The notes under the pieces were generated by a model. That model saw only the letters and a program-made list of their open reading frames with translations, made no database searches and was not told where the DNA came from. Position numbers and translations under genes: made by a program. Shown piece after piece: positions 2,555 through 9,357 of a DNA stretch of 50,201 bases. Origin of the DNA: a virus; the IMG/VR virus record IMGVR_UViG_3300025155_000005, positions 1 to 50,201 of that record; one strand, given 5' to 3'. Each line of letters begins with the position of its first letter. Within the stretch, counting starts at the first letter, position 1.

Positions 2555-2765
2555 GCTCTCTCGGCTGATGTATAAGATGTTCGAGCCGACCTGCCAGTTC
2601 TACCATTCTGACGGTGTCACTCGCTGTGGCAAAAAGGCAGTGGCCGTCTACGTCTCAGCGGACTATCTGCAAGAACTGCGCCCCATCTGCCAGAAGCACA
2701 GGCAAGTGGCAGGCGATGGAGACGGGCCAGTCTACGATCTGGTCCGCGCGGTGCATCCGGAATGA
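2532..2765 (+). CDS. Possible small zinc-binding early protein (77 aa)
   Basis: ATG at 2532 has a good SD (GGGAGGAGAACG) located inside the previous gene. The product carries Cys and His residues in a zinc-knuckle-like order: CQFYHSDGVTRCGKKA near residues 21-36, then CQKH near residue 56. This is the pattern of small treble-clef or recombination-endonuclease-like domains, though too short to assign. The remainder is soluble. It overlaps the next reading frame start region and belongs to the strongly SD-led early cluster. Confidence 0.65.
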   Translation: MFYLHTDKLSRLMYKMFEPTCQFYHSDGVTRCGKKAVAVYVSADYLQELRPICQKHRQVAGDGDGPVYDLVRAVHPE

Positions 2766-2785
2766 GCCGCGGAGGAGGGCCGCTG

Positions 2786-3100
2786 ATGCCTGACAAGCCG
2801 GTGGTGTTCATTCAGGTCGACGGCGGAGTCGCCGACTGGAAAGTCCTGAGAGGCAACGTCGATGTTGTCCTGCTTGACTGGGACAACATAGAGTCCGGGC
2901 TGCTCACGGATTTCGACGCGAAGATCGCCGAGATCGAGAGCCTGCCGCGGCATGAGTGGAGAGAGGGTGCGCTTTTCTCTCTCCGGAATCTGCGGCAGGA
3001 GCTTGTCGCGGAGCTTGCCGAAGAGGCGCGGCGCAAGGCTGACAAAGCGTACTGCATTCACAAGTGTCCTAGTTGCGGAGAGAAGGTGCATCATGGGTAA
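2786..3100 (+). CDS. Early protein with LDWD motif, paralogue of the protein at 4821 (104 aa)
   Basis: ATG at 2786 is chosen because GGAGGAGGG precedes it at good spacing; ATG at 2762 is an in-frame alternative. The N-terminal 50 residues (MPDKPVVFIQVDGG, then VDVVLLDWDNIESG) clearly resemble the protein at 4821 (MSDKPLVVVGVEGG, then VDVLLIDWDEMGNE). Small proteins with this beta-strand plus (L/I)DWD pattern are widespread hypothetical proteins in phages and plasmids. A C-terminal CPSCGEKVHHG looks like a half zinc ribbon. The function is unknown; the two copies suggest duplication within the early region. Confidence 0.7.
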   Translation: MPDKPVVFIQVDGGVADWKVLRGNVDVVLLDWDNIESGLLTDFDAKIAEIESLPRHEWREGALFSLRNLRQELVAELAEEARRKADKAYCIHKCPSCGEKVHHG

Positions 3101-4820: not shown

Positions 4821-5291
4821 ATGTCTGACAAGCCGCTAGTTGTCGTCGGAGTAGAAGGCGGGTGCGCTAGCTACTCGGAGTGGCCGCCTCAGTCAGTTGA
4901 TGTGCTTTTGATCGACTGGGACGAGATGGGTAACGAGGACTACATTCGCGACAAGGTGACCGAAGTCGAAGACGACAAGCGGATCGAACTCTGGTTCAGG
5001 AACGAGCTGCTCAATGCTCTCGCTGGACACCTGGAAGGGCCATTCGACGAGCCTGATGATCCGCATCTTAACGCGCAGCTTGCGATGGAAGGGGTGCTTG
5101 CAAGCACGTCACATGCAGAGGAGGTGAGCACGATGGGAGCGAGCCGTCTAGACGACGCGTTCTCGACGATCAACCAGGTCATCGAGACGCGCGAGCAGCA
5201 GGGCCGCACTGCAGCGGTCGCGCTGCTTCAGGCAGCCGCGGAGGCCATCAAGGCCGAGCGCGCGCTGAGCGCTGCCGGGTTCCAGAAGTAA
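4821..5291 (+). CDS. LDWD-motif early protein with C-terminal extension (156 aa)
   Basis: ATG at 4821 follows GGAGGGGAGCATAG. The first 80 residues (MSDKPLVVVGVEGGCASY, then VDVLLIDWDEMGNEDYI) match the paralogue at 2786. The last 53 residues (MGASRLDDAFSTINQVIETR, then AVALLQAAAEAIKAERALSA) form an independent Ala-rich helical region. A second ATG at 5132 is preceded by a perfect internal SD (GAGGAGGTGAGCACG) and lies 28 bp after a CTTGCAAG site (5097-5104). The gene therefore looks like an in-frame fusion or a nested gene making a full-length and a short product. Confidence 0.7.
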   Translation: MSDKPLVVVGVEGGCASYSEWPPQSVDVLLIDWDEMGNEDYIRDKVTEVEDDKRIELWFRNELLNALAGHLEGPFDEPDDPHLNAQLAMEGVLASTSHAEEVSTMGASRLDDAFSTINQVIETREQQGRTAAVALLQAAAEAIKAERALSAAGFQK

Positions 5292-5307
5292 GCGTTCTGG
5301 TTCCTTT

Positions 5308-5343
5308 CACGGGCGCCCGTGTCCCCCCGGCAACGGGGGGCAC
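5308..5343. terminator. GC hairpin pair after the early cluster
   Basis: A 14-bp perfect palindrome CACGGGCGCCCGTG (5308-5321) overlaps a second hairpin in which CCCCCCG (5323-5329) pairs with CGGGGGG (5334-5340) around a GCAA tetraloop. GTG/CAC extends the stem. There is no U-run, so it is either a weak or factor-dependent terminator or an RNA-stabilising element. It separates the small early genes from the phosphotransfer cassette. Confidence 0.6.
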
Positions 5344-5371
5344 AGGGGGCGTGTGAAGCCCGGGAGGAGAG

Positions 5372-5977
5372 ATGACAATGACAGGGGAACAACCGGAGAC
5401 GCTGCAACAGCTGATAAGAACGCTGCTGACCGAGTTCAACTTGAGCAGCGAGATCGACAACGGAGTGGTCTCAAAAGATCCCTATGTATGGGTCCCGTGG
5501 GACGACTCGTCACACGGTCGGGTTGCTGCGCGGCAGGCGGCAGAGCGGCTCACAGAAGCTGGGCATCTCGTTCTCGGGGTGCAACAGCATCCAGAGACCC
5601 TAGCATGGGGCGTCGCTGTCGGGCTTCATCCCCTAAGCCCTGTTGACCTGCCAATCACGCTAACGGGACTCGGAGTGAGCAAGGGCGCGTATGACGGGAC
5701 GATCAGGGTCATCACGCACTGGAAAGGGATCGACAAGCTTGAACGCGGTGAGGTGTTGTGCTGCCCAACAACCGACCCGAACTGGGCTGAAGCGTTCGAG
5801 AGAGCCGGTGCTGTCATCACGCAGATCGGCAGCCTGCTGTGCCACGCGGCAATCGTCTGCCGAGAATACGGCTTGCCGTGTGTGGTGAACGTCCGGGACG
5901 CGATGCGGCCGCAATACAACGGGTTGCAGGGCCGCGTCGATGGAAAGGCCGGGACCGTGGAGGTGTTGGCGCCGTGA
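5372..5977 (+). CDS. PEP-utiliser-type phosphohistidine (swivel) domain protein (201 aa)
   Basis: ATG at 5372 follows GGGAGGAGAG. Residues 1-95 are an unassigned N-terminal region. From about residue 100 to the end the protein matches the mobile phosphohistidine domain of PEP synthase, pyruvate phosphate dikinase and rifampin phosphotransferase (PF00391-like). It shows GVSKGAYDGTIRVI, then EVLCCPTTDPNWAEAFERAG, then ITQIGSLLCHAAIVCREYGL and GRVDGKAGTVEVL. The His of CHAAI occupies the phosphorylated position; the usual GG(x)SHA is here SLLCHA. In known enzymes this domain ferries phosphate between an ATP-binding and a substrate domain. Here it is a separate protein overlapping (GTGA) the gene for the ATP-binding partner. 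No substrate (TIM-barrel or rifampin) domain is encoded nearby. Confidence 0.85.
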   Translation: MTMTGEQPETLQQLIRTLLTEFNLSSEIDNGVVSKDPYVWVPWDDSSHGRVAARQAAERLTEAGHLVLGVQQHPETLAWGVAVGLHPLSPVDLPITLTGLGVSKGAYDGTIRVITHWKGIDKLERGEVLCCPTTDPNWAEAFERAGAVITQIGSLLCHAAIVCREYGLPCVVNVRDAMRPQYNGLQGRVDGKAGTVEVLAP

Positions 5978-6750
5978 CCGTCGGGTTTCTTCCGCTTGAG
6001 CGGGTTGTCCGCCGCTCCACTCACGGCGGCAAGGCGGCCACACTCGGACGGCTGCTACGCGCGGGCCTACCCGTCCCGCCCGGCCTTGCGATCTCACCCG
6101 GCCAGAGTCCGCGCGGGGACCCAGTAGTAACGGCCATCCTGGCCCTTCAAAATGGTAAGGGCGCACAGATCCCTCTTGCTGTGCGGTCTTCAGCCGTAGG
6201 TGAAGACGGACGTGACGCATCCTACGCGGGGCGGTTTGAGTCAGTGCTCGGCTGCTATACGTTTTCTGAGGCGTGCGCAGCGGCAGAGCTCGTCCGCACG
6301 TCGGCGTCTGCGGCGCGAGTCGCCGCGTATCAAGAAAGAAAGAAGGGCGACACTGCGCCAGTGCGCGTGGGCGTAATCTTCCAACGGCTCGTCAACGCGA
6401 CGCACTCGGCCGTGGTTTTCACGCGACATCCCATGCCGACCGGACCGAGCGATCCCGACGATGTCGTCGTTGAGGTGACGGAGGGGCTAGGCGATCGGCT
6501 GGTCAGCGGTCGGGTTGAGCCGGCGACCTGGGAATACGGACGCGACGACAAGCTGTGGGCGCATCGCGCCGGTCCAATGATTGAGGTGCCGGCGCGGAAT
6601 CAGCTGGTGCAGCTGGCGCTGAAATGCGAGAAAGTGATCCGCGCGCCAGCCGACGTAGAAGCGACTTTTGACGGCGAGATGTGGTGGATCGTACAAGCGC
6701 GACCGATCACCACGCTGCCGAAGCCGCGGCGGAAGGGGACACGGAAATGA
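5974..6750 (+). CDS. Dikinase-type ATP-binding domain protein (PPDK/PEPS N-domain, 258 aa)
   Basis: The start is GTG 5974, overlapping the previous stop, with GGAGG 11 nt upstream. The sequence follows the ATP-binding domain of pyruvate phosphate dikinase/PEP synthase (PF01326-like). It shows GGKAATLGRLLRAGLPVPPG near residue 17, LAVRSSAVGEDGRDASYAG near 65, an SAVVFTRHP(M) strand near 145, VVEVTEGLGDRLVSGRVEP near 165, and the terminal EMWWIVQARPITT, the conserved WxxQARPIT-type strand. Family members phosphorylate a swivel His using ATP. At 258 residues it is shorter than usual. It stands alone, so it must act on the swivel protein encoded just upstream. An ATGA overlap couples it to the next gene. 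Confidence 0.88.
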   Translation: MTVGFLPLERVVRRSTHGGKAATLGRLLRAGLPVPPGLAISPGQSPRGDPVVTAILALQNGKGAQIPLAVRSSAVGEDGRDASYAGRFESVLGCYTFSEACAAAELVRTSASAARVAAYQERKKGDTAPVRVGVIFQRLVNATHSAVVFTRHPMPTGPSDPDDVVVEVTEGLGDRLVSGRVEPATWEYGRDDKLWAHRAGPMIEVPARNQLVQLALKCEKVIRAPADVEATFDGEMWWIVQARPITTLPKPRRKGTRK

Positions 6751-8039
6751 GCCCACGGGCGGCAAAGATCATCGAAGTTACGATGGAACAAGTTGCTAGT
6801 CTCGGTCTTCCTAAGGGCGCGGTTATTGTTGGGGAGGACCCGGCGAGTGGCGTCTTCAAGGTGCAGCTCTCGGCGGTGAAGGGACCTGAAGCGCTCGCAG
6901 AGGCGCTGCCAGTACCGCCTCCGCCTCCTCCGTTCGTTAAAGGCCCGGAGCCGGCCGATGGACTCGCTGGATCGCCGTGTGCCGGCTGCGGCAAGATCGT
7001 TAAGAAAGGCGAAATAATCGTTTGGGGCGGAACGAACTTCAAGGTCGCTCACCAGAAGTGCGTAAGCTCCGGGACGCATTTCATGTCAGCAGCAGAAGCC
7101 GTCGCGCTTGGTGGGATGCTTAAGTCTCTTCAGGAAGAGGAGCAGGAAGAGGAGCAGGAGGAGGAGGAGGAGGAGGAAGAAGAAGAGGAGGAAGAGCCCG
7201 ACCCCAACATCTGCCCGGATTGCGGCGCGTTAACCTGCGATGGCTGTGGTAACTTCAACTGCGCTTGCACATGTGATGGCGGTGACGGTGAGGAGCCCAG
7301 TCCAGAAGCGCCGCCGTCAGGCGTCAACCCCTCGGACTACGCCGAGCCTGACATGCTTGGACTTCATGCAATCTATGACCTGTGGGAGCTGCCAACGGTG
7401 TTGCTCCCAAAGGAGGCGTCTGATTTCTACCTGCTGGAGTACCTGGGCTCTGTTCTAGAGCATCCTGAAGCGCGAGAGCTGCAAGCTGCGCAGGTCGCTC
7501 GCCTTGCGCCGGTGTTGGCGAACTACACAAACTTTGCTCTCGGCGGCGAGCTTCGACACGTCATCCGGTATACCAAGTGGGTAGATCTTCCGGATAGCTA
7601 CCAGAAGTTTTACCCCGACCCGAATATCGACCTGGGGCTGCATCTCGCACTACACCGTCCGGTTGCGTGGCGCGGCTGGCACGGCGTTTGGGTTCGTCAC
7701 GGAGTTGACGCGATCTGCGCTGCGGAGGAAATGTTCCGTGATTTCTTCGAGCGCTCGACGAGCTACGGAGGCCCCGCGTGGAGCCGAATCGCCAAGACGC
7801 TCGCGGACTACTTGAAGGGAGTGCTGCGGCCCAAGCTCTTCGTCGACCGCGTGTGGTCGATTCAGCATAACGGCGGCACACTGCTGAATAAGGCGCCGCA
7901 GCGGCTTCTCGGGCTGGAGCTGCTTGGCAGTATTCTGGACGCACAGAAGTCCGGTGATCTGGCGACACTTCGGACCTACGCAAGCTCTGGTGTCGTTCGC
8001 TTGTACCTCAAACTAGTGGAACATGAGGAGGGGTCGTGA
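6747..8039 (+). CDS. Cys-rich, poly-Glu protein of the phosphotransfer cassette (430 aa)
   Basis: ATG overlaps the previous stop (ATGA). Residues 1-75 are unassigned, with a PPPPPP stretch. Residues about 75-110 carry CAGCGKIVKKGE and a later HQKC, a LIM/zinc-ribbon-like set. A Glu/Gln run of more than 20 residues (DNA 7131-7199) follows. Then comes a dense Cys cluster (CPDCGALTCDGCGNFNCACTC) and a helical C-terminal domain of about 230 residues containing FVDRVWSIQHNGGTLLNKA. No enzyme family is recognised. Being third of four overlapping genes, it may be the phosphate acceptor or the specificity subunit of the cassette; this is inference. The GAGGAG microsatellite could vary in length between isolates. 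Confidence 0.75.
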   Translation: MSPRAAKIIEVTMEQVASLGLPKGAVIVGEDPASGVFKVQLSAVKGPEALAEALPVPPPPPPFVKGPEPADGLAGSPCAGCGKIVKKGEIIVWGGTNFKVAHQKCVSSGTHFMSAAEAVALGGMLKSLQEEEQEEEQEEEEEEEEEEEEEPDPNICPDCGALTCDGCGNFNCACTCDGGDGEEPSPEAPPSGVNPSDYAEPDMLGLHAIYDLWELPTVLLPKEASDFYLLEYLGSVLEHPEARELQAAQVARLAPVLANYTNFALGGELRHVIRYTKWVDLPDSYQKFYPDPNIDLGLHLALHRPVAWRGWHGVWVRHGVDAICAAEEMFRDFFERSTSYGGPAWSRIAKTLADYLKGVLRPKLFVDRVWSIQHNGGTLLNKAPQRLLGLELLGSILDAQKSGDLATLRTYASSGVVRLYLKLVEHEEGS

Positions 8040-9322
8040 TGGGACGCAAGAAGAAGCGCAACAAAGGGACGATCTACTATAACGGGGAGGAAGCCCTGAT
8101 CGACTACATCGACGACGACCCCTGCCGGACCTGCGGCGCGATCCCTACGAAGGCGTGGCCGCGAGAGGACCTGGAGTCCTGGGATGATGGGGTCTGCCCG
8201 AAGTGCATGACCGTACATCCTGACTCCGTAGTGGAGGATGCGACGTACTGGAACGAGGACTACGGATACGGAGGCGGACAGGTCTACGCTGCCTATAAGG
8301 CATGCACTCACGACGGCTCTCCGGTTCAGCTCATGCCAGGGGCGCAGCTGTACGCGTACTCATCGCGAAGCACAAAAGGACTGCCGGACGTCGACTACTT
8401 CATCGCGCTATCGTATAACTGGACTGACGACGGCGACGGGCTGCTGATGGCGCCCGGCGTGCCGTTCATGTCGGCATCGGTGACGTCAGGGCCGAAGTAC
8501 ATCTACCTGGCAACACCCGATCATGGAGTCATCCGCAATATCGGGTTGTTTATCGACCTTGTCGAGTGGGCTGTCGAGCAGGCGCTTGGCGGCAAGCGCG
8601 TCGGTGTGGGGTGCATGGGCGGGCACGGCCGAACCGGCACGTTCCTTTCTGCTGCGCTGCTCGCCGCGAATCCGACCTGGAACGCAAAGGAAGCTGTCGA
8701 GTTCCTGCGGGCTCAATACTGCAAGGACGCGGTTGAGAGCGAGTCGCAGGTGGACCTGCTTGTGGCGCTCGCCGAGATCGTGTGGACGGACAAGCCCAAG
8801 GTGGCAGACCCGGTTGCGCAGGTGAAAGCCTACCTTGCGAAACAGGACGCGGATCGGGAGGTTGAGCGCAAGGCGAAAGCCGTGTCCTATACCATGTCTG
8901 GTGCATCGCTGAACACCGGACCGTACCCGAAGCGAGTGCGCATCAAGACCGGACTGCCTGGAGGGTTCTTGGCGCCGATGTGGGGGCTGGAGGTCGCTGT
9001 CGAGAGCTGGGGGTACACAAAGGGCGCGGTCGTCGTCCGGCGCCCGGACGGAGGAACCGCATCTGTCTTTCCAGTTGAGTACGACGTAACGGTCCCAGCT
9101 GACGAGCCGAAAGGTAAAAGCTTCTCAGGGCGCTGGATTCGCTGCACGCACCCCCCGTACACGGAGTACCAGGTACTGCGAGTCGGATACGCCTCTGACT
9201 CTGTGATCGTGCTTGGCATCACCGGCGGTGAGCTAGAGTACCTAGCTTCGGAGTATGAGTTCATCGCCAAGCCAACGGTGAAAACGTTCCCTGGCAAGAT
9301 CATGCGAGTCATCAAGCCCTGA
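8039..9322 (+). CDS. Tyrosine/dual-specificity phosphatase-like protein (427 aa)
   Basis: ATG 8039 overlaps the previous stop; GTG 8036 is an in-frame alternative, and GAGGAGG lies upstream. An N-terminal zinc ribbon (CRTCG, then CPKC) is followed by a domain with the PTP signature C-x5-R: VGVGCMGGHGRTGTF, Cys near residue 191. A helix follows, as in dual-specificity phosphatases. The residue before the catalytic Cys is Gly instead of the usual His. A WTDDGDG segment near residue 125 could supply the general acid. The C-terminal 140 residues look beta-rich and unassigned. As the last gene of the cassette it could remove the phosphate that the dikinase pair adds; phosphatase activity is family inference. 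Confidence 0.78.
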   Translation: MGRKKKRNKGTIYYNGEEALIDYIDDDPCRTCGAIPTKAWPREDLESWDDGVCPKCMTVHPDSVVEDATYWNEDYGYGGGQVYAAYKACTHDGSPVQLMPGAQLYAYSSRSTKGLPDVDYFIALSYNWTDDGDGLLMAPGVPFMSASVTSGPKYIYLATPDHGVIRNIGLFIDLVEWAVEQALGGKRVGVGCMGGHGRTGTFLSAALLAANPTWNAKEAVEFLRAQYCKDAVESESQVDLLVALAEIVWTDKPKVADPVAQVKAYLAKQDADREVERKAKAVSYTMSGASLNTGPYPKRVRIKTGLPGGFLAPMWGLEVAVESWGYTKGAVVVRRPDGGTASVFPVEYDVTVPADEPKGKSFSGRWIRCTHPPYTEYQVLRVGYASDSVIVLGITGGELEYLASEYEFIAKPTVKTFPGKIMRVIKP

Positions 9323-9328
9323 GTGGGC

Positions 9329-9357
9329 TTGCAAGCCGGGCGCGGGGGTGGTACGCT
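9329..9357 (+). promoter_or_regulatory. Promoter overlapping a CTTGCAAG site
   Basis: TTGCAA (9329-9334), which is the core of CTTGCAAG (9328-9335), lies exactly 17 bp from TACGCT (9352-9357). The start would be near 9364 and the next gene begins at 9382 after GGGAGGTCCGT. It opens the zinc-ribbon cluster directly after the phosphotransfer cassette. Confidence 0.6.

Follow-up and report, generated by a model that had tools for sequence, protein, structure and literature searches.

Which substrate does a phage dikinase serve when the domain that would normally accept the phosphate is missing? This question is raised by a block of four adjacent, overlapping open reading frames (ORFs A to D, positions 5372-9322, overlaps of 4, 4, and 1-4 nt) in a virus record from IMG/VR; the whole stretch of 50,201 bases taken from this record is referred to here as the window. 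The block would be a phosphotransfer cassette in which B and A act as the phosphate donor, C is an acceptor module supplied in trans, and D is a phosphatase, a reading to which we assign a probability of about 0.5.

Layout of the Block and Its Flanks

The plus strand of the window carries phage replication genes (primase, helicase, DNA polymerase, exonuclease, and a Sak4-like annealing protein), while the head genes, portal, and terminase are found on the minus strand. A first-pass annotation had reported four overlapping genes in the block, and all four ORFs, from A at 5372-5977 to the end of D at 9322, were recovered. Profiles built with the window left out were compared with the 664 six-frame ORFs of the window, and matched C (1.9e-16) and D (2.1e-27), which are neighbours; no other ORF matched significantly. 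The same profiles gave nothing significant among 3,320 shuffled ORFs. Since the two matches adjoin and the shuffled ORFs are blank, chance does not explain the arrangement of these genes.

Single-sequence scans of IMG/VR found no close relatives of A, B, C, D, or the window DNA polymerase, and thus no second phage with a split dikinase was found. No close relative was found when the DNA polymerase and portal of the window phage were considered. PADLOC-DB models did not match A, B, C, or D at E 0.1, and an anti-phage defence reading was rejected on this basis.

Just 5' of gene A, on the plus strand, lies a strong hairpin. The RNA fold of 5290-5372 has an energy of -49.3 kcal/mol (z = -4.6), which no shuffle equalled. 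The hairpin described earlier at 5308-5343 is therefore real, but it is slightly longer, extending over about 5305-5358. Further upstream, at 2762-3100 and 4821-5291, the window encodes two small proteins that are alike at their start (MPDKPVVFIQVDGG and MSDKPLVVVGVEGG, followed by VDVVLLDWD and VDVLLIDWD), which suggests a duplicated gene just 5' of the cassette. On the 3' side of the block, the sequence CTTGCAAG (9328-9335, plus strand) had been taken for a promoter at 9329. The sequence is present; however, it is an over-represented palindrome, with 19 copies in the window (sites 527 to 49807) against 0.69 expected, and a promoter role is at most putative. The copies are spread across plus- and minus-strand gene regions, several of them near gene starts or ends, and CTTGCAAG would seem to be a regulatory or replication site used across the phage.

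A Dikinase in Two Pieces

Gene A (5372-5977, plus strand) encodes a phosphohistidine swivel protein of 201 aa, in which the PEP-utilizers domain PF00391 spans residues 124-194 (4.7e-20) and is preceded by an N-terminus of some 95 residues of unknown kind. The catalytic His158 (LLCHAAIVCREYG, codon at 5843-5845) was located by sequence and by alignment to solved swivel enzymes. Gene B (5974-6750, plus strand, GTG start) overlaps A by 4 nt and encodes a free-standing ATP-binding protein of the PPDK_N type (258 aa; PF01326, 9.4e-34). Its ATP-site motifs (GGK, VRSS, DxE, and QxRP) are intact. The swivel and the separate PPDK-type ATP protein of the first-pass annotation are thus both found. Its statement that the substrate domain is missing also holds, since a Pfam scan detects no PEP-utilizers_C domain (the PEP/pyruvate barrel) in either protein.

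Against NCBIfam, B matches NF004880 at 1.9e-27 and the pyruvate phosphate dikinase (PPDK) model TIGR01828 at only 0.033, while A has its best matches among models of PEP synthase, PRK08296, and rifampin phosphotransferase type (2.1e-28, against 2.5e-5 for PPDK). B also matches the solved PEP synthase 8a8e (1.5e-17). Judged by sequence, A and B are much closer to the PEP synthase/rifampin phosphotransferase branch than to PPDK, with B in the PEP synthase branch.

Gene D, a Phage Phosphatase

Gene D (8039-9322, plus strand; alternative GTG start at 8036) encodes a protein of 427-428 aa that starts with a Cys-pair region and has an additional C-terminal stretch of some 170 residues. It matches phrog_17568 at 3.8e-18, while the Pfam models for protein tyrosine and dual-specificity phosphatases (PTP/DSP) remain below cut-off. 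Of the profiles made without the window, PTP2 (2.1e-27) scores better than PTP1 (1.2e-18). The C-x5-R phosphatase signature reported in the earlier annotation is present as C192-MGGHG-R198 (8612-8632, plus strand) in a protein of PTP2 type. In an alignment of nine cassette phosphatases, the Cys and Arg of this P-loop are invariant; the general-acid position is Asp in D and in most relatives, and Asn in one relative. Loss of catalytic residues in homologues had been named as a point against the proposal, and such loss is rare: the dikinase His motif is kept in 55 of 56 near-full-length dikinases and the PTP2 P-loop in 77 of 78, with the motifs of A, B, and D intact.

The label "thymidylate synthase" carried by phrog_17568 was rejected because the aligned cassette members carry phosphatase motifs; PF00303, the thymidylate synthase family, had no match in the phages searched. 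Judging from these motifs, the label is apparently an error that has been propagated. Genes of that name are found at phosphatase positions in DLP3 and SIO-2 (L003 8489-9265 and L200 4486-4962), and the DLP3 gene is by motif a Cx5R phosphatase.

Gene C and Its Family Domain

Gene C (6747-8039, plus strand) encodes 430 aa. The earlier description, a Cys-rich poly-Glu protein with an uncharacterised domain, stands for the first half, where a poly-Glu run and several Cys pairs are seen; the helical domain that follows (7320-8036, plus strand) is about 239 rather than 230 residues long and matches phrog_20946 (1.8e-12). In about 90 homologues, H374-N375-x-G377...N381-K382 and D398-x-Q400-x-x-G403 are invariant or nearly so, and across the family the E/R-H, GG-W, D, HN-x-G, NK, and D-x-Q residues are retained in nearly all sequences. 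This conserved pattern suggests an active site.

AlphaFold modelled the window domain at a pLDDT of 75 (best parts over 90) and the homologue L029, which is helical, at 93.8. The top four structural matches of the window model are viral proteins, and a search with the family representative places these same four first; as the alignment behind the window model contained relatives, this agreement is support and not independent proof. A search of the PDB with the model of pLDDT 93.8 yielded nothing convincing: the best E value in Foldseek was 1.1, and VIA-align reached a best Z of 4.8, to a long helix only. The missing PDB match does not prove a new fold.

Conservation of the Cassette among Phages

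Are these genes linked elsewhere? A tblastn search with C matched 32 phage records. In the first four inspected, C lies between genes annotated as pyruvate phosphate dikinase and tyrosine phosphatase, and all eight phosphatases were verified. An alignment scan for C extended this to 80 viral loci and 6 in bacterial genomes, and six-frame ORF profiles gave a fixed order on one strand: dikinase, CsrA-like, PTP1, C, PTP2, and D142. Wherever more than 4 kb of sequence 5' of C is available (93 distinct loci), the dikinase is found there; of the 100 distinct loci with over 2.5 kb on the 3' side, 99 have a phosphatase there, the sole exception being a clone of Vibrio phage 1. The order is identical in 138 of 140 fully covered C loci, some of which are repeats of one contig. 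The records of Vibrio phages J26, SIO-2, sm030, and LV6 have one phosphatase-position gene 5' of C and none 3' of it; because the phosphatase is found only before C in some Vibrio phages, the constant core consists of the dikinase, C, and at least one phosphatase.

The reverse test gave a similar picture. Among phages with named hosts, 40 records were found for the dikinase and 40 for C, from the same genera; the PPDK-like gene occurs in 33 Vibrio, 4 Stenotrophomonas, 2 Rhizobium, and 1 Rhodobacter records, and the only difference between the two sets lies in two cloned Vibrio phage 1 fragments. Outside these records, the dikinase matches Bacillus phage G and unannotated records, several of which are short. 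When the dikinase alone was used for a scan, 78 new loci were obtained, 67 of them with C and a phosphatase; 8 of the others break off at the dikinase or close to it, and 3 encode complete PPDKs of the bacterial type. The last three (L162, L163, and L165) had been candidates for dikinases without C and were rejected as complete enzymes of about 875-890 residues. Co-occurrence in other genomes, which the first-pass annotation had proposed as a check, is therefore observed from both sides (93/93 for the dikinase, 99/100 for the phosphatase, and 67/78 in the reverse scan). The gp139 protein of Bacillus phage G (L170 5713-6810) is a short PPDK-like protein, consisting of the end of the ATP domain and the swivel, encoded beside a putative FtsZ-like gene. 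It is a barrel-less dikinase, and no C or phosphatase is named nearby in that record.

The CsrA-like and D142 genes are present in all siphophage loci with sufficient coverage, while neither has a significant profile match among the 664 six-frame ORFs of the window. The CsrA name comes from the phage records, and two members tested had no Pfam match. D142 proteins (e.g., L003 9351-10226), encoded 3' of C or PTP2, have the motif LYQPVxGTSxxSxY, and no Pfam family was above cut-off for the two members tested. Vibrio phage genes called "pyruvate decarboxylase" or "transporter" occupy the D142 position (L171 962-1809, L199 5947-6801, and L202 5912-6814) and are probably misnamed. On the basis of its gene content and sequences, the window is classed as a divergent outlier of the cassette family.

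The first-pass annotation knew of no described phage system of this kind. Single cassette genes have in fact been annotated in about 40 phage records (as PPDK, tyrosine phosphatase, "thymidylate synthase", CsrA, or "transporter"); however, no open-access paper was found that treats the cassette as one system, and subscription journals or preprints may hold one.

Proposed Phosphotransfer and Its Alternatives

In the proposed scheme, B would bind ATP and phosphorylate His158 of A, a step equivalent to the ATP half-reaction of PEP synthase and PPDK enzymes. The third domain, where pyruvate or a drug would ordinarily receive the phosphate, is absent and would be replaced in trans by C, which could itself be phosphorylated or could hold the true acceptor. 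D, a cysteine phosphatase, would then take a phosphomonoester off the product or an intermediate. We infer that A and B form a complex, that the phosphate passes to C or by way of C, and that D acts in this manner. The suggestion that C defines the acceptor or substrate had already been made from the window, and it gains support from the finding that C and the phosphatase are kept with two types of barrel-less donor. Because the donor enzyme varies in the outlying window while C and the phosphatase stay, C is singled out for study. The simplest reading of this linkage is that the dikinase merely makes phosphohistidine and that C directs the phosphate.

Several observations argue against the phosphotransfer scheme. 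A phosphatase and a kinase in one operon need not have a common substrate, and the phosphatase lies solely before C in some Vibrio phages. The window, which has neither the CsrA-like gene nor D142, may not act exactly like the larger cassette. C has no fold match, and its role is deduced from linkage only.

What might the acceptor be? A nucleotide or DNA would be the first candidate, given the DNA polymerase gene beside the cassette in the other phages and the restriction-resistant DNA of two cassette phages. A bolder and rather unlikely reading is a new pathway, in which a phosphohistidine donor feeds the new-fold C family, a nucleotide or a DNA position is phosphorylated or activated, and the phosphatases finish the modification. 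If true, a phage group and an unrelated window phage would protect or reprogram nucleic acid by an undescribed chemistry.

An alternative that survives best, though it remains rather doubtful, is a narrower version of this scheme, in which the cassette serves to modify DNA or nucleotides: the dikinase would activate a base, sugar, or nucleotide precursor held by C through phosphorylation, the phosphatases would trim phosphates, and the phage DNA would be protected. DLP3 DNA resists all 15 restriction enzymes tried (PMC7326821), and only 4 of 36 enzymes cut DLP5 DNA (PMC5834331). Three Pfam families that mark known routes to hypermodified DNA (thymidylate synthase, QueC, and TGT) gave no match in DLP3 or in the rest of the records searched; the window and four cassette phages were all without them. 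In addition, DNA polymerase I adjoins the cassette in 63 of 71 loci, usually as the next gene, and a dCTP deaminase adjoins it in VH2_2019. The unexplained modification of DLP3 and DLP5 DNA would have a concrete candidate source in the cassette. However, other genes of these phages may give the resistance, and the DLP3 paper names a glycosyltransferase (PMC7326821). The DNA of Vibrio phage 1 was deposited as clones, and so is probably not wholly refractory. Restriction data for further cassette phages were sought in open-access papers and not found; a Vibrio phage set with digests was set aside, as it had no demonstrated link to cassette phages.

A regulatory circuit of protein phosphorylation is unlikely. 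Here, the dikinase would act on C or on host proteins, the phosphatases would reverse this, and the CsrA-like protein would tie the circuit to translation control. Phosphatases of tyrosine/dual-specificity type do adjoin the kinase, and a CsrA-like gene is found in every sufficiently covered siphophage cassette, but that gene is absent from the window and lacks a Pfam match in the two members tested. Furthermore, no sensor or output domain was found, and known swivel enzymes chiefly phosphorylate small molecules.

Far less probable is the published view that the dikinase is an auxiliary metabolic gene, a true pyruvate phosphate dikinase/PEP synthase that boosts host carbon metabolism, as described for Vibrio phage J26. 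The papers on Virtus, LV6, R21Y, R18L, and J26 all treat the dikinase as a carbon-metabolism auxiliary gene, with the phosphatase considered separately. Similarity to PPDK is indeed strong across the N-terminal 60% or so, and the J26 model, which docks PEP, has a PEP/pyruvate domain at residues 524-691, placed in the final 168 residues of the protein (PMC12038007). However, the siphophage dikinases, which are of the fused PPDK type, end before the barrel: in seven tested, the TIGR01828 match covers only the first 468-531 or so of 865 positions, and PEP-utilizers_C has no match in the three scanned with Pfam. No barrel was detected in the window either, and the region 3' of the swivel is poorly conserved among the phage copies. 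For proteins related to that of J26, these domain tests lend no support to a complete barrel. Moreover, the window enzyme is of another branch and in two pieces, yet C and the phosphatase are retained. A repeatedly published "auxiliary" gene of carbon metabolism therefore appears to be part of an order-fixed cassette whose dikinase has no metabolic substrate domain.

That four unrelated genes came together by chance deserves scarcely any credence and, judging from the loci compared, is already refuted as regards linkage: short overlaps are frequent in phage operons, but co-occurrence and order are near-perfect in about 100 distinct loci, and C and PTP2 are retained with a different dikinase.

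Comparison with Known Systems

The dikinases of the siphophage cassettes have the same ATP domain and swivel as PPDK (TIGR01828), and the window has the equivalent domains, with A being a PF00391 swivel with His158. The likeness conferred by PF01326, which is found in B and in the fused phage enzymes, is at superfamily level only, as B fits the PPDK model poorly. Unlike PPDK, the phage copies end before the PEP/pyruvate barrel, and the window pieces belong to the other branch and are encoded by two genes. The closest families to A and B are PEP synthase (TIGR01418) and PRK06241/PRK08296-type proteins, from which the window differs in having the ATP domain and the swivel on separate proteins, with no PEP/pyruvate domain.

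Rifampin phosphotransferase (NF041857) and the PigC/RedH ligases use an ATP domain and a swivel for a substrate other than pyruvate, and their similarity to A and B is detectable. However, A and B match just the two ends of NF041857, and the central rifampin-binding domain is absent. C has no sequence relation to these enzymes and no solved-fold match.

D shares the Cx5R loop with the PTP-SAK (PF22784) and Tc-R-P (PF22785) families; PF22784 is below cut-off for D and above it for cassette relatives. The GC-x-GG-x-GRTG loop, which is not preceded by the usual His, sets the cassette phosphatases apart from other Cys-based PTP/DSP enzymes, as do a conserved YC-x-x-AVES-x-x-Q segment and the extra regions in D.

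The nearest relatives of the block as a whole are the "PPDK + tyrosine phosphatase" genes of Vibrio, Stenotrophomonas, Rhizobium, and Rhodobacter siphophages. The window departs from these in that its dikinase is split and of the other branch, its C protein bears a Cys-rich poly-Glu extension, and it encodes a single phosphatase, no CsrA-like protein, and no D142. What the two share is the C and phosphatase families, the C-PTP2 order, and a barrel-less dikinase on the 5' side.
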